Part shown: in pieces, positions 35,750-54,817 of the stretch
Layout of the letters: every line of letters starts with the position of its first letter
Numbering within the stretch: the first letter of the stretch is position 1
Position numbers and translations under genes: made by a program
The notes under the pieces: model-generated
What the model was told of the DNA's origin: nothing
What the model saw: the letters and a program-made list of their open reading frames with translations, nothing else
Databases searched by the model: none
NCBI GenBank assembly: GCA_030427635.1
Contig: JAUIBA010000003.1
Span: 62,001-126,000, forward strand
Reading direction: 5' to 3'
Source: Bacteroidia bacterium
GTDB taxonomy: Bacteria > Bacteroidota > Bacteroidia > Chitinophagales > Chitinophagaceae
Length of the DNA: 64,000 nucleotides

Positions 35750-36274
35750 ATGAAAAACTTCTTTAAATCTCTCGCAATCGCAGCTGTAGCAACTTTCGGT
35801 TTCGCAACTGCATCTCACGCTCAGGCTACTGCTACTGCTTCTGCCTCTGCTAACATCATCACTCCTATCTCTATCGTTAAGACGGTAGATATGAACTTCG
35901 GTAACGTAGCCGTTTCTGCTACCATAGCCGGTACTGCTATCCTTGACCCTGCCGGTACACGTACTACAGGCGGTGCAGGTGGTGTAACCCTTCCTGCTAC
36001 TACAGGTACTGTTTCTGCTGCCAGCTTCACAGTTTCAGGTCAGGCTTCTTACACTTACGCTATTACATTGCCTACAAGCTGCACTATCTCTGACGGTGCT
36101 TCACATAACATGACTGTTGACAACTTCACATCAGTACCATCTGCAACCGGCACGCTGAGCGCTTCTGGTACTGAAACCCTGAACGTAGGTGCAACGCTGA
36201 ACGTAGCTGCTGCACAGGCAAGCGGTCTGTACACTAACGCAACTGGTGTTCCTGTAACAGTTAACTACAACTAA
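35750..36274 (+). CDS. secreted DUF4402 protein, copy 1 of 3
   Basis: The 174-aa product has a signal peptide (MKNFFKSLAIAAVATFGFATASHAQ), then a beta-rich domain of DUF4402 type: NIITPISIVKTVDMNFGNVAVS, TGTVSAASFTVSGQASYTYAITLP, and a C-terminal VPVTVNYN strand. The family resembles fimbrial or coat-like secreted proteins; the role is unproven. The mature sequence differs from copies 2 and 3 at one residue (AGTAILD instead of AGTAVLD). Composition is extremely rich in Ala, Thr, Ser and Gly, pointing to an abundant surface protein. Confidence 0.92.
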   Translation: MKNFFKSLAIAAVATFGFATASHAQATATASASANIITPISIVKTVDMNFGNVAVSATIAGTAILDPAGTRTTGGAGGVTLPATTGTVSAASFTVSGQASYTYAITLPTSCTISDGASHNMTVDNFTSVPSATGTLSASGTETLNVGATLNVAAAQASGLYTNATGVPVTVNYN

Positions 36275-41502: not shown

Positions 41503-42027
41503 ATGAAAAACTTCTTCAAATCAATCGCAATCGCAGCTGTAGCAACTTTCGGTTTCGCAACTGCTGCTAACGCTCAGGCTACTGCTACTGCTTCTGCCTC
41601 TGCTAACATCATCACTCCTATCTCTATCGTTAAGACGGTAGATATGAACTTCGGTAACGTAGCCGTTTCTGCTACCATCGCTGGTACTGCAGTTCTGGAC
41701 CCTGCAGGTACACGTACTACAGGCGGTGCTGGTGGTGTAACCCTTCCTGCTACTACTGGTACTGTATCTGCTGCCAGCTTCACAGTTTCCGGTCAGGCTT
41801 CTTACACTTACGCTATAACACTGCCTACTTCATGCACTATCTCTGACGGTGCTTCACATAACATGACTGTTGACAACTTCACTTCTGTGCCATCTGCTAC
41901 CGGCACACTGAGCGCTTCTGGTACTGAAACACTGAACGTAGGTGCAACGCTGAACGTAGCTGCTGCACAGGCAAGTGGTCTTTATACGAACGCAACTGGT
42001 GTTCCTGTAACAGTTAACTACAACTAA
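41503..42027 (+). CDS. secreted DUF4402 protein, copy 2 of 3
   Basis: The 174-aa product has the same domain layout as the copy at 35750. The mature protein is identical to copy 3. The signal peptide differs from copy 1 at three positions (SIAIAAV, ATAANAQ) and from copy 3 at four. Silent changes are spread along the gene, so the copies are not brand-new duplicates. A repeat-rich TAGTAGATGG stretch and then a hairpin terminator follow. Confidence 0.92.
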   Translation: MKNFFKSIAIAAVATFGFATAANAQATATASASANIITPISIVKTVDMNFGNVAVSATIAGTAVLDPAGTRTTGGAGGVTLPATTGTVSAASFTVSGQASYTYAITLPTSCTISDGASHNMTVDNFTSVPSATGTLSASGTETLNVGATLNVAAAQASGLYTNATGVPVTVNYN

Positions 42028-44617: not shown

Positions 44618-45142
44618 ATGAAAAACTTCTTCAAATCTCTCGCAATCGCAGCTATAGCAACTTTCGGTTTCGCAACTGCATCTCACGCTCAGGCTACTGC
44701 TACTGCTTCTGCCTCTGCTAACATCATCACTCCTATCTCTATCGTTAAGACTGTAGATATGAACTTCGGTAACGTAGCCGTTTCTGCTACCATCGCAGGT
44801 ACTGCCGTTCTGGACCCTGCAGGTACACGTACTACTGGCGGTGCAGGTGGTGTAACCCTTCCTGCTACTACAGGTACTGTTTCTGCTGCCAGCTTCACAG
44901 TTTCTGGTCAGGCTTCTTACACTTATGCTATTACACTTCCTACTTCCTGCACTATCTCTGACGGTGCTTCACATAACATGACTGTTGACAACTTCACTTC
45001 TGTACCATCTGCTACAGGTACGCTGAGCGCCTCAGGTACTGAAACTCTGAACGTAGGTGCAACGCTGAACGTAGCTGCTGCTCAGGCAAGCGGTCTTTAT
45101 ACTAACGCAACTGGTGTTCCCGTAACGGTGAACTACAACTAA
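44618..45142 (+). CDS. secreted DUF4402 protein, copy 3 of 3
   Basis: The 174-aa product has the signal peptide MKNFFKSLAIAAIATFGFATASHAQ and a mature sequence identical to copy 2. It ends just left of the prophage and is followed by a different terminator from copies 1 and 2, so the duplicated unit stops at the coding region in this copy. Confidence 0.92.
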   Translation: MKNFFKSLAIAAIATFGFATASHAQATATASASANIITPISIVKTVDMNFGNVAVSATIAGTAVLDPAGTRTTGGAGGVTLPATTGTVSAASFTVSGQASYTYAITLPTSCTISDGASHNMTVDNFTSVPSATGTLSASGTETLNVGATLNVAAAQASGLYTNATGVPVTVNYN

Positions 45143-46902: not shown

Positions 46903-49110
46903 ATGAAAATTGTTGATAGTAGGTTATATCTGGAGTTTGATGAGATGGTGGAGTGTGGCGTGAGCGGAAACTACCTGAGTAAAGCAAAAAGTGCCGGAAC
47001 AGGATGCTGGACATTTATCAATGACCCTGCTGATAAGCGGAGGGTACTGGTGGATTATGAGGACCTGCGCCCTGTATATAAAAAGATGGTGCTGGATAGG
47101 TTTGGTAATCCATGGGAGCATGTGGCACGGGAGCCGATACTGGCAATGGTGGTGAATGACTTTGCTGCGGAAAGCTACTTTAAAAGCTACCGGTACCAGA
47201 ACCTGACACTGGCAACCGGTGAATGTGAAAAGTACCTGCCTATAGATACGGTGAATAAATACACACGGGCGGCGGGATGGCTGAACCTAATCATACAGGT
47301 GGTGCATGATGGTGATATCGTAAAAAAGAGCATAGGGTTACAGATAAAAGACTTCTATAAGCATGTGCAGGCACTGATATGCATAGAAAAAGAGCGGGGT
47401 AAACTAGAGGGGTACGCGGGTATAGATGTACTGCCGGGGGATTTCCCCAGCAGCTACCAGCGACTAATGGCAAAGGCAAAGAAGTATGATGCAGAGGGAT
47501 ATGATGCCATTGTTGCACCGGAATTTGGCAATAAGCAGGCTGCGAAAATAGGGAAAGTGGTATCTGAAAGCAGCCTGCTATTGCCAGCCGGAGGGCATGA
47601 TAACGGGGAAATGTTACCTGAAATGAGCCCCAAAAGCGCGAATAAAGTGGGGGCTTTTGACCCTGAACTTTATAGCCGTCAGATGGCTGTAATCCGCGCC
47701 ATTGCTGAAAAGCACAACAATTTTGATGCAAAGCAGGTGCGTGATTTTGCGAAAACAATTTTTGACGCGGCTGGATGGGAAATGGTGAGTGTGGAACGGG
47801 TGCGCCAGATAATGAATGAAAACAAGATGTTACTTACAGCCGGACGGCGCGGCAAGCGGGTACACGACAGCACGGTAGCCCGTCAGATAAAGCGTAAAGT
47901 AACTGAAATGCCGATGGTGTACTGGACTATGGACGGCTGGACGGTGGAGCTGATGTATCAGGAGCAGGGAAGCAAAGGTGTAGACTATAAACGCATGGTG
48001 GCGGTAATAGTGCTGGACGCCTGGACAAAGTACCCGGTAGGCTATGCTACAGGTGAGCGTGAAACGCCGGAGCTGATAAGGGAGGCATTAAGGAGTTCTC
48101 TTCTGCATACAAAAGAACTATTTGGGGAGGTGTATCGCCCCGGGCAGCTGCAAAGTGACAATTACCAGATAAAAAACCTTACCCCATTCTATAGTGCAGT
48201 AGCTAATATGCATATACCGGCTGCGGTAGGTAATGCAAAGGCGAAAGTGATAGAGCCCTACTTCAAAGACCTGAATAAAAACTACTGTCAGAAACTGCCG
48301 AACTGGACGGGTTTCAATGTGAACGCCAGTAAGAAAAATCAGGTAAATAGCGAGTTTACCAATAAAATAAAACACTCATTTCCGGATAAGGATGGTGTGA
48401 TGCAGCAAATAGCGCTCATCATAGCCCGGGAGCGTGCCGCTAAACGTGAGCGGTATGTAAGTAAATGGCCTGACCTTCCTGCTGACCGCCGGTACCGAAT
48501 GGATGAGCTACAGTGGCTGGAGATATTTGGTGTGCCGGTAGGCAAAACAAACAGGCTGACCGGAGAGGGTATCGTTAAGCAGATAGAGGGGCAGAAATAC
48601 TGCTGGGATTCTTTGGATTTGGAATTCAGAAAGCAAATGCATGTGGACTGGCAAATAGTAGCCGACCTTACAAATATGAGCAAGGTGCTGGCTGTGAGCC
48701 CTGATGGCACAAAAAAGTATATACTGGAGCAAACCCGGGTGGTGCCAATGGACATAATGAGCAGTACTGAGGAGGACCATACATACCGGGCAATGGTGAA
48801 CGGCTATAATAAGAACCTGACCCAATATATAACTAACCAATACGGACAGGATGCTGATATAGCCCGTGAGGTGGTAAACTCTCTGCCACTGGATATGACC
48901 GACCCGGAGGAGCTGAACCTGAAACTGATGCTTACTATAGGTGGCCAGCAAAAAGAACGGATACAGGATGCCAAACGCCTGGGCGGACCTAAAGAAAACA
49001 GGAAAGCTATAGCTGCAGCAGCAAAAAGTGAAAGGGAACGTGCAGATGAGTGGGAGGATATGCAGGACAGACGTGCAGAGGATATAGTTGATTTTTCAGT
49101 CTATAAATAA
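46903..49110 (+). CDS. MuA-type DDE transposase
   Basis: The 735-aa product has an N-terminal DNA-binding region (residues 1-250), an rve-like catalytic core, and a C-terminal Mu-type domain. The catalytic triad can be placed: Asp344 in YWTMDGW, Asp419 in LQSDNYQIKN, and Glu451 in AKVIEPYFKDL, a D-D-31-E spacing. It should assemble on the prophage ends and carry out replicative transposition together with the ATPase encoded next. The basic, helical C-terminus fits MuB interaction. Confidence 0.95.
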   Translation: MKIVDSRLYLEFDEMVECGVSGNYLSKAKSAGTGCWTFINDPADKRRVLVDYEDLRPVYKKMVLDRFGNPWEHVAREPILAMVVNDFAAESYFKSYRYQNLTLATGECEKYLPIDTVNKYTRAAGWLNLIIQVVHDGDIVKKSIGLQIKDFYKHVQALICIEKERGKLEGYAGIDVLPGDFPSSYQRLMAKAKKYDAEGYDAIVAPEFGNKQAAKIGKVVSESSLLLPAGGHDNGEMLPEMSPKSANKVGAFDPELYSRQMAVIRAIAEKHNNFDAKQVRDFAKTIFDAAGWEMVSVERVRQIMNENKMLLTAGRRGKRVHDSTVARQIKRKVTEMPMVYWTMDGWTVELMYQEQGSKGVDYKRMVAVIVLDAWTKYPVGYATGERETPELIREALRSSLLHTKELFGEVYRPGQLQSDNYQIKNLTPFYSAVANMHIPAAVGNAKAKVIEPYFKDLNKNYCQKLPNWTGFNVNASKKNQVNSEFTNKIKHSFPDKDGVMQQIALIIARERAAKRERYVSKWPDLPADRRYRMDELQWLEIFGVPVGKTNRLTGEGIVKQIEGQKYCWDSLDLEFRKQMHVDWQIVADLTNMSKVLAVSPDGTKKYILEQTRVVPMDIMSSTEEDHTYRAMVNGYNKNLTQYITNQYGQDADIAREVVNSLPLDMTDPEELNLKLMLTIGGQQKERIQDAKRLGGPKENRKAIAAAAKSERERADEWEDMQDRRAEDIVDFSVYK

Positions 49111-49120
49111 AAACACATAT

Positions 49121-50074
49121 ATGCAACAGGAACTGATAAACAGGATAATAGACGGCGCTCAGGAATATATGCGCCAGCATGAACTGACGCAGGCTGAACT
49201 ATGCCAGCAGGCAGATATACCACCTGCTTACCTGAGTAATATGCTCAATGGCCGTACCACTATAGGCAATACGGCTATACATGAGCAGTACTGGATAAAA
49301 CTATCAAACAGTGTAGGTGTAACCATCAGTGATGATACGGCTGAATGGAAACTGGTGATGACACCCCAGTTTAAAAGGATAATAGCTACGCTGGAGACAT
49401 CCCGCACCCGCCAGACTGCCAAAGTAATAATAGGTGACCCGGGCACCGGCAAAACCCTTACTATAGAAAAATACAGGGCTGCTAACCCCAAATACACCTA
49501 TGTGCTGACGATGCATGACCTCATTAGTGTAGTAGACATCATCAATATGCTGATAGATAAGACAGGGTGCCCAGCAACAGGCAGCAAGGCAATGCGATTG
49601 GCTAACCTTATAATCAAGTTTCGTGAGCTGCACCTGAAAGGATACCAGCCGATGATAATCATAGATGAGGCTGAGAACCTAAAGCCTCATACAATGAAAT
49701 TATTAAAGGGGCTTTTTGACGGGATTAATAAATACTGCAGTATAGTGCTGGTCGGGACTAACCAGTTGATTACCAAAATGACTGCTGCAAAGAAAAAGGA
49801 TAAGGATGCGGCGCCGCAGTTTTACCGGAGGTTTATGCCCGGCGCTGTGACGCTACCAGAGCCGAAGCATGGACTACAGCGATTCATGCAAGAAATATAC
49901 ATAACCGACACCGGCCTGCAAAAGCTGCTCTTAGAGCTTTGCGAAAACTACGGTGAACTGAATGCATGGCTGGAGCCAGTAATTGTAGAGGCGGCAGCAA
50001 AGGGTGTAAAAGTTGATGAGGAATTTTTCAGAACATATCATAACCTGCCTGTGGCGAACAGGCGCAGAGCATAG
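49121..50074 (+). CDS. MuB-type AAA+ ATPase, transposition target selector
   Basis: The ATG at 49121, 10 bases after the transposase stop, is preferred over the overlapping frame start at 49088; it gives 317 aa. An N-terminal HTH (MRQHELTQAELCQQADIPPAYLSNMLNGRTTI) precedes the AAA+ core with Walker A GDPGTGKT and Walker B MIIIDEAENL. MuB-type proteins coat target DNA, deliver it to the transposase and give target immunity. Confidence 0.94.
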   Translation: MQQELINRIIDGAQEYMRQHELTQAELCQQADIPPAYLSNMLNGRTTIGNTAIHEQYWIKLSNSVGVTISDDTAEWKLVMTPQFKRIIATLETSRTRQTAKVIIGDPGTGKTLTIEKYRAANPKYTYVLTMHDLISVVDIINMLIDKTGCPATGSKAMRLANLIIKFRELHLKGYQPMIIIDEAENLKPHTMKLLKGLFDGINKYCSIVLVGTNQLITKMTAAKKKDKDAAPQFYRRFMPGAVTLPEPKHGLQRFMQEIYITDTGLQKLLLELCENYGELNAWLEPVIVEAAAKGVKVDEEFFRTYHNLPVANRRRA

Positions 50075-50579: not shown

Positions 50580-51253
50580 TGAGTGAAGCAGTAAAGCGGA
50601 AAAAACCAAAGGTGATAGGGTTGAAGCAGTTTTTCCAGAAGAAGTATGCATCACTGACCAATATGCCGGAACACTTACGGAGGAGCTTCGGTGAGCTGGT
50701 GATGAACTTCAGTATGATCATCTGGGGACAGAGTGGGAATGGGAAGAGCAATTTTCTGTATCAACTGATTGCATTCCTGGTATCCTATGGCAATGTGCTA
50801 TACATATCACTGGAAGAGGGGACGGAAAAGAGTGCGCAGCTCACAGCACTGAGACACCTGAATGAGGAGACGCATAGTGGCAAGATACTGTTTGCAGACC
50901 ATGAGATGAATTTTGAGGAGGCTAAACTATACCTGCGGCGTAAGAAGAGCCCTCAGTTTATAGTAATCGACAGCCTCCAGTACTGGGGTATCACATACAG
51001 CCAGTATCAGGAACTAAAGGAGCTGTTCCCTAAGAAGTCATTCATATTCGTGAGTCATGCTAAAGGAAAAAATCCTGATGGCGCCACAGCGCAGAAAATA
51101 CGCTACGATGTGGGTATCAAGGTGCATGTGAACGGATTTGTAGCATTCCCGATATGCAGATATGGCGGTAACAGGCCGTACATCATATGGGAAGATGGCG
51201 CGATAAGCGTGCATGGCAGAAAGAAAGTAAACCAATATAAAAAAGCAGCCTAA
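50576..51253 (+). CDS. RecA-fold phage ATPase
   Basis: The 225-aa product has Walker A IWGQSGNGKS at residues 56-65 and Walker B FIVIDSLQYWG at about 125, followed by FIFVSHAKGKNPDG, a sensor-type strand seen in RadA/DnaB-like and KaiC-like ATPases. It could be a helicase-loading or recombination ATPase for phage replication. It directly precedes the DnaA domain IV protein (TAATG overlap). Confidence 0.82.
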   Translation: MMSEAVKRKKPKVIGLKQFFQKKYASLTNMPEHLRRSFGELVMNFSMIIWGQSGNGKSNFLYQLIAFLVSYGNVLYISLEEGTEKSAQLTALRHLNEETHSGKILFADHEMNFEEAKLYLRRKKSPQFIVIDSLQYWGITYSQYQELKELFPKKSFIFVSHAKGKNPDGATAQKIRYDVGIKVHVNGFVAFPICRYGGNRPYIIWEDGAISVHGRKKVNQYKKAA

Positions 51254-51699
51254 TGAGTGAAAGGAGGAGACAGGTTAATGCAGTAAACACCATACTGTGT
51301 GCCGCCGAAAAGGACATATTTATAGCAACCGGATTGCGCATGCGCCTGATATCTGTTGGTGATCTGCCGGATTATGGAGATGCAGCTACGACTAAGCCAC
51401 AAATGATGCTGAAGGTTATAGCTGATGCGCTGGAGATGGACTATTCAGCATATACAGACAGGAACCGGACGCGCAGGCTTGTGCGACTGAGGCAGATAGG
51501 CTGCTATATGCTACATACCTATTACCCTGACATGACACAGTCTGAAATAGGTTCTCTGATAGGCCCATACGACCACACAACAGTAATACACTGTATAAAA
51601 GCTGTGACAAACAGGTATGAGTCATATAACCAGATGCTGATATCAGAACATGAGATAGCGCTGGAAGCAGTAACCCAATTAATAGCCATAACTGAATAG
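51253..51699 (+). CDS. DnaA domain IV-like DNA-binding protein
   Basis: The 148-aa product ends in a DnaA C-terminal domain: RLVRLRQIGCYMLHTYYPDMTQSEIGSLIGPYDHTTVIHCIKAV carries the DnaA signature DHTTV-H, the recognition helix that reads DnaA boxes. It lacks the AAA+ domain. It may recruit host initiation proteins or bind a phage replication site. The combination with the RecA-fold ATPase before it is typical of many Bacteroidota phages but unusual for Mu itself. Confidence 0.88.
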   Translation: MSERRRQVNAVNTILCAAEKDIFIATGLRMRLISVGDLPDYGDAATTKPQMMLKVIADALEMDYSAYTDRNRTRRLVRLRQIGCYMLHTYYPDMTQSEIGSLIGPYDHTTVIHCIKAVTNRYESYNQMLISEHEIALEAVTQLIAITE

Positions 51700-52042: not shown

Positions 52043-52561
52043 ATGAGTACAACAATTGAAATCAAACCTGACAATCTGAGACTTGCATGGCTGAAAGCCG
52101 ATGATAATGGCAAGTTAGTACTGGAGACGTTGTTTGGCAGTGAACTGGTAAAGTCTGACCGTGAGCCCAAAGAATGGGTGAAGACATTTGGCGATGTGTG
52201 TATGGCTGCAGGAGTGGATGAAGATGACTATGCGCTGGATGGTGATGACTGCCATTATAATGTGGGAATGTGCCTACGCAGGCTGAAGCTGATAGCGCAG
52301 GTGTTTAATGGCGACTGGAGGCCCAGTATAGCCAATACGGGCCAGCCGAAGTACTACCCCTGGTTTGATATCATTAAAGACGAGGCTGCGGCTGGGGGCT
52401 TCCGGCTGTCGTATCACGGCTACGACTTCGTTTTCTCGTTTACGTACCTCGGTGCCCGACCCTACTTTAAGGATGCTGACACTGCGATACATGTGGGTAA
52501 GCTGTTTATTCAGGAGTATGAGCAGCTGCTGCGCTGGGAGGATAAGACTTTTGAAATCTGA
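52043..52561 (+). CDS. DGR target protein 1, 172 aa
   Basis: Longest of the three targets, with an N-terminal extension of about 45 residues that shares little with the other two. The common part starts near WRPSIANTGQPKYYPWFDI. The VR covers residues 117-138 (AGGFRLS then the variable segment YHGYDFVFSFTYLG). A conserved tail follows (GARPYFKDADTAIHVGKLFIQEYEQLL), so the VR is internal. All nine core differences from the template are at adenines. No signal or membrane segment. The fold is not a recognised C-type lectin by eye. Confidence 0.93.
   Translation: MSTTIEIKPDNLRLAWLKADDNGKLVLETLFGSELVKSDREPKEWVKTFGDVCMAAGVDEDDYALDGDDCHYNVGMCLRRLKLIAQVFNGDWRPSIANTGQPKYYPWFDIIKDEAAAGGFRLSYHGYDFVFSFTYLGARPYFKDADTAIHVGKLFIQEYEQLLRWEDKTFEI
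52391..52457 (+). repeat. variable repeat VR1
   Basis: 67 bases aligned without gaps to the TR at 53404-53470. The first 21 bases are identical to the TR. In the following 39 bases nine differences occur, all at template adenines. The 3' end reads CTCGGTGCCC where the TR has CTCAGTGCCC. Confidence 0.95.
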
Positions 52562-52590
52562 TTTTTAAACATAAAACAACAAAAAAAACA

Positions 52591-52962
52591 ATGAATTACG
52601 TGTCAACATTTGAGGATGCATGTGCCCGACTGGGACGCAAAGCGGAACTGCCTGATGTGAGCCAGTTTCCGGAAAAGATACAGAAACACCTGATAGCCGG
52701 TATAAAGCTGGATGCGATACTGGAGGTGAATAATGAGGGATGGGTGCCGGATATGGGCAATACCAGCCAGTGGAAGTACTATCCGTGGTTTAATATAGTA
52801 GCGGATAAAGCTGCGGCTGGGGGCTTCCGGCTGTCGGCTTACGGCTTCGTCTACGATTTCTCGCATTCGTACCTCGGTGCCCGCCACGCCTGCAGGAGCG
52901 GTGAGCTGGCAAGGTGGATGGGAAAGAACTGTGCTGAGCTGTATGATGATATGCTGCGATAG
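52591..52962 (+). CDS. DGR target protein 2, 123 aa
   Basis: Close paralogue of target 3: KLDAILEVNNEGWVPD, KYYPWFNI and the tail CRSGELARWMGKNCAELY are shared. The VR lies at residues 76-97 (variable part AYGFVYDFSHSYLG). In the core ten template adenines are changed, and one non-adenine (T to G at the first core base). It begins 29 bases after target 1 and precedes target 3 by 43 bases. The tail resembles a family common in Bacteroidota phages and plasmids (S-LCFKS-ELA-Y-GKQF-ELY); its function is not known to me. Confidence 0.93.
   Translation: MNYVSTFEDACARLGRKAELPDVSQFPEKIQKHLIAGIKLDAILEVNNEGWVPDMGNTSQWKYYPWFNIVADKAAAGGFRLSAYGFVYDFSHSYLGARHACRSGELARWMGKNCAELYDDMLR
52816..52882 (+). repeat. 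variable repeat VR2
   Basis: 67 bases aligned to the TR; first 21 identical. Ten of 15 core adenines changed plus one non-adenine change. Ends CTCGGTGCCC, like VR1. Confidence 0.95.
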
Positions 52963-53005
52963 GGGCTTTTATAATCAACTTAATAAATAACTACAATATC
53001 ATAAA

Positions 53006-53377
53006 ATGGAACTTGTAAAGTCATTTGAAGCCGCTTGTGAGCGCCTGAACCGTAGCACTGACCTTCCGGATGTATCAATGTGGCCTGAGCGGCTGCAAAA
53101 GCACCTGACGGCATTGTATAAGCTGGATGCGATACTGGAAGTAAATAATGATGGCTGGGTGCCGGATATATCAGATACTGATCAGGGTAAGTATTTCCCG
53201 TGGTTTGATATCATTAATGATGAGGACGTGGCTGGGGGCTTCCGGCTGTCGTCTTCCGACTACGAATTCGGTCGCTCGTATACGCGCCTCGGTTCCAGCC
53301 TCGCCTGCCGGAGCGGTGAGCTGGCAAGGTGGATGGGAAAGAACTGTGCTGAGCTGTATAAGGAGCTGCACAGCTAA
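53006..53377 (+). CDS. DGR target protein 3, 123 aa
   Basis: Same layout as target 2, with the VR at residues 76-97 (variable part SSDYEFGRSYTRLG) and the tail SLACRSGELARWMGKNCAELYKEL. Ten of 15 core adenines are changed plus one C to A. Its stop lies 26 bases before the template repeat, so this target is the one closest to the TR, as in single-target DGRs. Confidence 0.93.
   Translation: MELVKSFEAACERLNRSTDLPDVSMWPERLQKHLTALYKLDAILEVNNDGWVPDISDTDQGKYFPWFDIINDEDVAGGFRLSSSDYEFGRSYTRLGSSLACRSGELARWMGKNCAELYKELHS
53231..53297 (+). repeat. variable repeat VR3
   Basis: 67 bases aligned to the TR; first 21 identical. Ten adenine changes and one non-adenine change in the core; two further non-adenine differences in the last seven bases (GGTTCCA). 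Confidence 0.93.
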
Positions 53378-53403
53378 GTAATGTAGTGGGCTGCGCATTG
53401 CCA

Positions 53404-53470
53404 GCTGGGGGCTTCCGGCTGTCGTATAACGACTACGACTACGATAACTCGAATACGAACCTCAGTGCCC
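53404..53470 (+). repeat. DGR template repeat (TR)
   Basis: Non-coding template between target 3 and the RT. After 21 bases shared with all VRs, the core (53425-53463) is built from AAC, AAT, TAC, GAC and similar codons; in the target frame it would read YNDYDYDNSNTNL. It holds 15 adenines, all placed at first or second codon positions, so mutagenesis varies amino acids and cannot create stop codons. Confidence 0.95.
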
Positions 53471-53577
53471 ATCTTGTTTAAACATTGCAATGCGGGCCTT
53501 GCCTCTTGGCAAAAAATCACGATAAGTAAAAAGGGGGCGCTGGTAGCATGTGCGAAAGCGACCCGAAAAACAAAGGC
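53471..53577 (+). ncRNA. TR-RT spacer with a small stem-loop, probable part of the DGR RNA
   Basis: In characterised DGRs the RNA downstream of TR is needed for cDNA priming. Here the spacer contains TTGCC-TCTT-GGCAA (53499-53512), a perfect 5-bp stem followed by an A tract. Its extent as an RNA gene is inferred from position only. Confidence 0.5.
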
Positions 53578-54561
53578 ATGAAACGTCACGGAAACCTGTT
53601 TGAAAATATGTGCAGCACTGAGCGGCTGGAGCTGGCCGATAAGGAGGCCAGAAGGGGTAAGGGGCCAAGAGCAGACATAAGGCTGCATGATGCCAACCGT
53701 GAAGGCAATATCGCCCTGCTGCGTGAGCTGCTGCTGAACCGGGAATACAGGACATCTGCGTACAGGGTGTTTAAGGTGTATGAGCCTAAAGAGCGGGATG
53801 TATATATGCTGCCATTTTTCCCGGACCGTATAGTACACCATGCCCTGGTAAAGAATGTGCTGGAACCGGTACTGGTGCCAACCTTCACAAGGGATACTTA
53901 CAGCTGTATAAAGGGACGTGGGATACATGCAGCATTTGAGCGGCTGAAAGCGGCACTGAAGGACCGGGAGGGTACAAGGTATTGCCTGAAGCTGGACATT
54001 AAGAAGTTTTACCCATCTGTAGACCATGAGGTACTGAAGGTGCTGCTGCGCAGAAAGATAAAGGATGCTGATATGCTGTGGCTGATGGATGAGATAATAG
54101 ACAGTGCCCCGGGCCTGCCGATAGGCAACTATACGAGCCAGTACTTTGCCAACTATTACCTGAATGGATTTGACCACTGGATAAAGGAGGTGAAGGGTGT
54201 GCGGTACTACTTCCGCTATGCGGATGATATAGTAATACTGGGGCCGGATAAAAAGGAGCTGCACCTGCTACTGGCTGATATAAAGACTTACCTGAAGGTG
54301 GAGCTGCGGTTGAAGGTGAAAGAGAATCATCAGGTGTTTCCTGTGGAAAAGAGAGGTATTGACTTTGTAGGGTATGTGACCTACCCGACTCACAGCCGGG
54401 TGCGCAAGAGCATAAAACAAGCCTGCGCCCGTAAGCTGAAACATAACTGTAGCCCTGCAACCATTGCCTCATATATGGGATGGTTTACACACTGTAACTC
54501 AAGACACTTAACGAAAAAGCTATTACGTGAAAAACTTCAAGGAACTGGGTATAAAAAGTGA
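53578..54561 (+). CDS. DGR reverse transcriptase
   Basis: Copies the TR RNA into adenine-mutagenised cDNA that replaces VR sequence. From the ATG at 53578 the protein (327 aa) starts MKRHGNLFENMCSTERLELA, the common start of DGR RTs; the frame extends to an ATG at 53548. Palm motifs: LKLDIKKFYPSVDH, the DGR-type motif GLPIGNYTSQYFANYYL (group II RTs have QG-xxx-SP), and the catalytic YADD at residues 214-217. The thumb region has FVGYVTYPTHSRVRKSIK and SYMGWFTHCNS. It overlaps the next gene by 35 bases. Confidence 0.96.
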   Translation: MKRHGNLFENMCSTERLELADKEARRGKGPRADIRLHDANREGNIALLRELLLNREYRTSAYRVFKVYEPKERDVYMLPFFPDRIVHHALVKNVLEPVLVPTFTRDTYSCIKGRGIHAAFERLKAALKDREGTRYCLKLDIKKFYPSVDHEVLKVLLRRKIKDADMLWLMDEIIDSAPGLPIGNYTSQYFANYYLNGFDHWIKEVKGVRYYFRYADDIVILGPDKKELHLLLADIKTYLKVELRLKVKENHQVFPVEKRGIDFVGYVTYPTHSRVRKSIKQACARKLKHNCSPATIASYMGWFTHCNSRHLTKKLLREKLQGTGYKK

Positions 54562-54817
54562 GGCGAAGGGGTTTGTAGGGGATAAGATAAAAATCAACAA
54601 AATATTAAACAGGGAGATAGTGGTGACGGACTACAGAATAGCACCATCCCCGTACACAGAAAAGAGACTGGACCTGCAGATAGAGCTGAATGGTACAAAG
54701 TATGTGGTGTTTACCGGCTCAAAACACCTGATAGAGCTGATAGTGCAGGTGGCAAAGGAGGACTTCCCATTTAAAACAACGATAGTACAAGAGAATGAGC
54801 GATACGAATTTACCTGA
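54527..54817 (+). CDS. small protein coupled to the DGR reverse transcriptase, 96 aa
   Basis: GTG start 35 bases inside the RT gene. The product looks beta-rich (GDKIKINKILNREIVVTDYRIAPSPYTEKRLDLQIELNGTKYVVFTGS) with a C-terminal PFKTTIVQENERYEF. It is not a four-helix Avd-type protein. I recall similar proteins following DGR RTs in other Bacteroidota prophages but cannot check. A nucleic-acid-binding accessory role is possible and unproven. Confidence 0.75.
   Translation: MKNFKELGIKSEAKGFVGDKIKINKILNREIVVTDYRIAPSPYTEKRLDLQIELNGTKYVVFTGSKHLIELIVQVAKEDFPFKTTIVQENERYEFT

Follow-up and report, generated by a model that had tools for sequence, protein, structure and literature searches.

Most explanations of phage diversity-generating retroelements (DGRs) cast them as switches of host range on tail fibres; what, then, is such an element doing with three small target genes side by side in a Mu-like prophage? 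The question is raised by a cassette in a 64,000-nt stretch of DNA, here called the window, from a Bacteroidia bacterium of the family Chitinophagaceae (assembly GCA_030427635.1, contig JAUIBA010000003.1, positions 62,001 to 126,000). By every test run the cassette is a DGR, and it is complete, as the first-pass annotation of the window had proposed: a reverse transcriptase (RT), a template repeat (TR), variable repeats (VRs), the differences between TR and VRs at the 3' end, and Mu-like genes are all present (Table 1). Taken as a whole, it is best explained, with fairly high confidence, as an active or recently active DGR from a clade found mainly in Bacteroidota phages, with paired targets and a probable OB-fold helper.

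The pattern of differences between TR and VRs identifies the element. A recomputed alignment bears out the earlier placement of three VRs against one TR, without gaps over 67 nt and all on the + strand. Adenine cells of this alignment are changed in 32 of 48 cases and non-adenine cells in 4 of 153 (Fisher p 6e-21). The TR contains 15 adenines before its 3' anchor, and the last, the 16th, is G in every VR of the window, a difference of the type known from initiation of mutagenic homing sites (IMH*/IMH). Without that last template adenine, 29 of 45 adenine cells are changed, which agrees with the first count of 29 of 45 adenine and 2 of 72 non-adenine sites in the core. Two of the non-adenine changes lie inside the core (VR2 position 22 and VR3 position 36) and two outside it (VR3 positions 64 and 67). 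The base matching the anchor adenine is likewise G in 168 of 213 VRs of relatives, and the anchor is present in 98 of 108 loci. No TR codon can be turned into a stop by an A-to-N change. Extra VRs elsewhere in the genome were also considered; when its 4.25 Mb were searched at the DNA level with the TR as query, no repeat copies beyond these four turned up. The RT frame is open and carries both motifs first noticed in it, IGNYTSQ at residue 182 and YADD at residue 214; an IGNYTSQ-type motif is a mark of DGR RTs.

Table 1. Features of the cassette and the adjoining transposition genes, in window positions
Feature	Position	Strand	Remarks
MuA-like transposase	46903..49110	+	phrog_310 transposase 1.2e-25; upstream of cassette
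MuB-like DNA transposition protein	49088..50074	+	phrog_296 2.8e-41; AAA_22, TniB
Target gene 1, upstream type	52043..52561	+	172 aa; phrog_11581 8.4e-15; clusters with the upstream-type targets found in relatives (weak support for the deep split)
VR1	52391..52457	+	non-A mismatches to TR: 0
Target gene 2, proximal type	52591..52962	+	123 aa; phrog_11581 9.1e-18; sister of target 3 at 100/100
VR2	52816..52882	+	non-A mismatches to TR: 1
Target gene 3, proximal type, apparent duplicate of target 2	53006..53377	+	123 aa; protein identity to target 2 60%
VR3	53231..53297	+	non-A mismatches to TR: 3
TR	53404..53470	+	67 nt; 3' end about CTCAGTGCCC carries a fixed A read as G in VRs (IMH*-like)
Structured RNA element, RT-17-like, between TR and RT	53495..53583	+	RF03020 38.5 bits, E 3.9e-5, gathering score 40.4; covariation
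DGR RT	53578..54561	+	327 aa; RVT_1 1.9e-17; phrog_1423 reverse transcriptase 1.8e-127
Candidate accessory protein, predicted OB fold	54527..54817	+	96 aa; phrog_19665 2.2e-10; AlphaFold2 predicted local distance difference test (pLDDT) 91.8

Related cassettes show the same adenine-specific change between close kin. Relatives were taken from the best 80 of 202 genome loci and the best 80 of 486 further loci; leaving out 30 genome loci with an RT identity below 45% gives 130 loci (50 + 80, numbered with the prefix L). The first-pass annotation had suggested looking in related genomes for different VRs, and near-identical cassettes do differ almost only at template adenines. This comparison concerns relatives of the prophage. 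In 13 of 18 pairs whose RTs are identical, the shared VRs are identical too (some of these pairs are probably the same strain in two collections); in the other five they differ. For example, L011 and L148, with identical RTs and identical 150-nt VR flanks, differ at 10/22 and 11/22 adenine sites and at 0/67 other sites per VR. L013 and L014 (RT 98.8%) differ at 13/22 and 10/22 adenine sites and at 0/66 others in each VR, with 11/150 and 16/150 changes in the flanks. Since some pairs differ in a single VR, the VRs of one cassette can change separately: only the farthest VR differs between L129 and L130 (13/23 adenine sites, with no change in the other two), and only the proximal VR between L124 and L126 (12/23 adenine sites). 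The middle VR of L128 differs from that of its kin at 9/23 adenine sites and 2/69 others.

The same loci answer whether three tandem targets are an oddity of the window. TR/VR pairs were found in 117 of the 130 loci, with two VRs in 83, three in 25, and one in 9; in 12 of the 13 loci that lack a pair, less than 350 nt is available upstream of the RT. After removal of near-copies, and with at least 1600 nt upstream required, 86 loci are left, of which 61 have two VRs, 22 have three, and 3 have one. With two or three targets in 83 of 86 dereplicated loci, the oddity is ruled out, and several side-by-side targets are, by this count of sequences, the rule in this RT clade. The first-pass view that such arrangements are less common holds for DGRs in general, where about a seventh have several targets according to PMC3521204, but not for this clade. 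Of the three loci with a single target, L048 and L052 are distant (RT 49% and 47%) and have large targets. The layout before the RT is regular in relatives, with the TR end at ~95 nt and the VRs at ~375 and ~765 nt; the targets are short, with medians of 129 and 154 aa, and ~77 nt lie between the VR end and the stop. L041 and L102 have one target beside the RT and the others 3-9 kb upstream, and L086 and L145 have an additional remote VR. The remote VRs of these four loci sit in small proteins of the same target family. Because these extra VRs lie 3-9 kb upstream of the RT, the DGR also appears to reach distant targets.

Are the tandem targets equivalent? When the constant parts of 182 targets from 82 loci and the window are placed on a tree, built on few usable columns, they fall into one part with 79 rows (62 next-to-proximal, 13 third, 4 proximal) and another with 103 (79 proximal, 21 next, 3 third). 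The main split is weak (support 29/92), and position labels change on the tree far less often than after shuffling (22 versus 60.5 times for proximal, 34 versus 59.9 for next). The upstream and RT-proximal targets would thus belong mostly to two paralogous groups, with weak support for the deep split. Targets 2 and 3 of the window are sisters and target 1 lies in the other part of the tree, which makes target 3, to judge from this tree, a late duplicate of a proximal-type target. The first-pass annotation had proposed that three small proteins could be varied together or as alternatives. Three equal alternatives are not favoured, given one upstream-type and a duplicated proximal-type target; separate change is borne out by the single VRs that differ in kin. 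In L086 two targets are encoded in one frame as a fused doublet, and two domains in 247-300 aa are present in 15 of the 120 homologues listed, a number that gives no rate because ranking by score favours such proteins. Together, the targets look like a two-part binder whose parts vary separately. To judge from the relatives, such a cassette usually acts on paired small proteins, probably other than tail fibres.

What the targets are built of is less clear-cut. Their proteins are ~13-19 kDa. A crude test found a strongly hydrophobic segment (KD19 >1.6) in 0 of 224 distinct targets and a strongly hydrophobic N-terminus in 1 of 224. The target model is helical, with an uncertain VR part of low pLDDT. 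With that query, Foldseek gave no match in the PDB at E 0.001 or better, and neither Foldseek nor VIA gave a C-lectin match, an absence that carries no weight. Sequence searches for solved relatives gave nothing convincing for targets or accessory, and the structural matches of the target among viral models are uncharacterised phage proteins. Over 29 columns, the VR segment aligns with the VRs of tail-type targets, namely the L048 target (probability 95%) and a cr55_1 protein (phrog_5302 'tail protein'; 83%). Because of this alignment, the variable piece is probably common to these and tail-type targets, on a different scaffold. A target relative with 26% identity also occurs in Bacteroides phage Versailles (L178:5863-6444), ~44 kb away from an RT of the same phage.

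Two further components, neither of them remarked on in the first-pass annotation, accompany the RT. The 96-aa gene overlaps the RT end and is present in 121 of 128 loci; conversely, loci found by the accessory alone have an RT just upstream in 7 of 7 cases. This distribution marks it as a conserved cassette component, and the protein, with its predicted OB fold, is a candidate helper in place of Avd. PF05635, the family covering Avd, has no match in 10 IMG/VR records or in cr55_1, and its matches in the bacterium's own genome lie on other contigs (C39, C41), so an Avd hidden near the cassette was rejected. An accessory common to the crAss-like cr55_1 cassette was rejected as well, the gene after the cr55_1 RT having no match to the 96-aa protein. 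Two new DGR accessory genes were reportedly described by Wu et al., and the 96-aa gene may already be among them. Similarly, the target cluster may already appear in the supplements of Roux et al. 2021. Neither an OB-fold DGR accessory nor a tie between RT-17 and DGRs was found in the literature searched, in which Wu et al. 2018 and Weinberg et al. 2017 were not covered.

The second component is the RNA element. In 81 spacers, 10 of 11 predicted pairs show changes on both sides. Paired cells amount to 96.2%, compared with 75.1% after shuffling and at most 54.2% when the sequences are slid, and cells changed on both sides number 181 versus 47.5 shuffled; the number of pairs with both-side change was reached in 48 of 500 shuffles. 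The window RNA scores just below the RF03020 gathering threshold, which is passed in 2 of 22 loci searched (L151, 43.6 bits; L013, 43.5 bits).

These components suggest the following course of diversification. The TR and the folded RNA directly 3' of it would be transcribed together, and the RT, probably aided by the small OB-fold protein instead of Avd, would copy the TR into complementary DNA with errors at adenines. This copy would then replace one VR at a time in the small upstream target genes. The targets would be of two ancient paralogue types, the proximal one duplicated here, and both types, each on a soluble and mainly helical scaffold, would most likely work jointly as a binder of two parts.

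The setting in the prophage bears on where the targets may act. The cassette lies between transposition and structural genes, since the MuA/MuB homologues are upstream and portal, terminase large subunit, major head, tail sheath, and baseplate hub genes are downstream, an order of genes that marks a Mu-like prophage. Between the MuA/MuB genes and the cassette sit an AAA ATPase and a protein with a DnaA C-terminal domain. The latter (51253-51699, in the early region) has 148 aa and matches the DnaA C-terminal domain IV alone (Bac_DnaA_C 1.2e-12); the frame just after the accessory of L086 resembles it by eye. The flanks of six hand-picked relatives contain helicase, primase, DNA polymerase, exonuclease, methyltransferase, terminase, and portal genes. 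A wider scan covered 230 flanking open reading frames (ORFs), each 150-1150 aa long, in 59 loci; 210 of them, in 54 loci, were used, and 20 from L045-L050 were left out. In each half of this set, the 25 commonest families comprise ATPase, methyltransferase, primase, HNH, terminase, RecT, and similar families; in one half, 2 of 101 matched a tail completion or neck family, and single tail genes may lie in families rarer than these. The nameable neighbours in relatives thus appear to be mostly DNA replication, methylation, and packaging genes. Around the prophage, a DNA methyltransferase gene (phrog_56; L166:6717-7343) follows the prophage tail genes, and five + strand ORFs have exactly 174 aa each (35750-36274, 41503-42027, 44618-45142, L166:7990-8514, and L166:10806-11330).

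Several explanations of the whole have to be weighed. It is very improbable that the cassette is a dead relic with old VR differences. The four non-adenine changes, three of them in VR3, would fit decay, but such changes are few, the RT is open with its motifs in place, and the accessory and RNA element are intact. An unlikely proposal, although a less remote one, is that the targets can stand in for one another and have no joint role, the several copies being kept because duplication comes easily. The origin of target 3 as a duplicate of target 2 and the change of VRs one at a time agree with such redundancy, and gene duplication is the explanation offered for multi-VR DGRs in PMC3521204. The clustering of proximal labels on the target tree and the recurrence of fused doublets, in L086 and among the listed homologues, argue instead for two distinct parts.

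The place of action is more finely balanced. Receptor binding is plausible if somewhat short of probable; here the small targets would join the virion, for example at its tail tip, and the DGR would change host tropism, as it does in BPP-1 and hankyphage. This reading draws on the alignment of the VR segment with tail-type VRs, on the Versailles relative, which is annotated 'tail protein', and on the targets of viral-clade phage DGRs, mostly annotated as tail proteins in PMC8144416. The proteins are small, however, and the cassette lies amid replication, methylation, and packaging genes in the scanned loci, although gene position is no proof of function; the Versailles gene itself adjoins recombination and replication genes. 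Alternatively, the targets may be soluble proteins made early whose ligands are variable molecules of the host or of competitors, for instance defence proteins or phages entering the cell. This tentative reading accommodates the near absence of hydrophobic segments and N-termini and the position among early and replication genes, but not as readily the occurrence of a similar VR segment in tail proteins. Because of the known phage DGRs and the shared VR segment, action on the virion is slightly ahead. A more far-reaching version is rather doubtful: that this widespread phage clade has moved off the tail fibre, that its pair of small soluble proteins, expressed with replication genes, forms a changeable two-headed intracellular binder, perhaps against host defence or rival phages, and that the OB-fold protein replaces Avd and the RT-17 RNA is a priming platform.

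A clade that is frequent and whose small paired targets stand apart from the tail module would widen the known purposes of DGRs. For DGRs without Avd, the OB-fold gene is a candidate, open to experiment, for the accessory that they lack; the RNA element offers a concrete template-RNA boundary to test.

Avd of BPP-1 is a helical protein of four-helix type. The DGR of this Bordetella phage resembles the window cassette in its RT, TR, VR, adenine-specific change, and structured spacer 3' of the TR, but has one tail-protein target and Avd where the cassette has several small targets and a predicted OB-fold protein. The role of the BPP-1 spacer is described in PMC12875486. Hankyphage, a Mu-like Bacteroides phage, likewise carries its DGR in a transposable Bacteroidota prophage; according to PMC6199706, however, its single VR, of 117 bp, falls at residues 2188-2225 of a single large protein, in contrast to three 67-nt VRs in proteins of 123-172 aa. 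The nearest named phage RTs, with 44-54% identity, are those of crAss-like phages (assigned in PMC7290462, citing Wu et al., to RT lineage 3), which share the target-TR-RT order and the lack of Avd. They differ in the tail-collar target, 486 aa in LMMB according to the same paper, and, in cr55_1, in the gene after the RT. Two targets with one TR are also found in the nd4/nd12 phage DGRs (tentaclins), whose targets are of different topology and predicted to bind receptors, as given in PMC10743442. The Rfam RT-17 RNA (RF03020) matches the RNA element in structure and in its location just before an RT gene, and in this cassette it directly follows a DGR template repeat. What sets the cassette apart from the model DGRs is its paired small targets, the candidate helper with a predicted OB fold, and where it sits in the phage genome.
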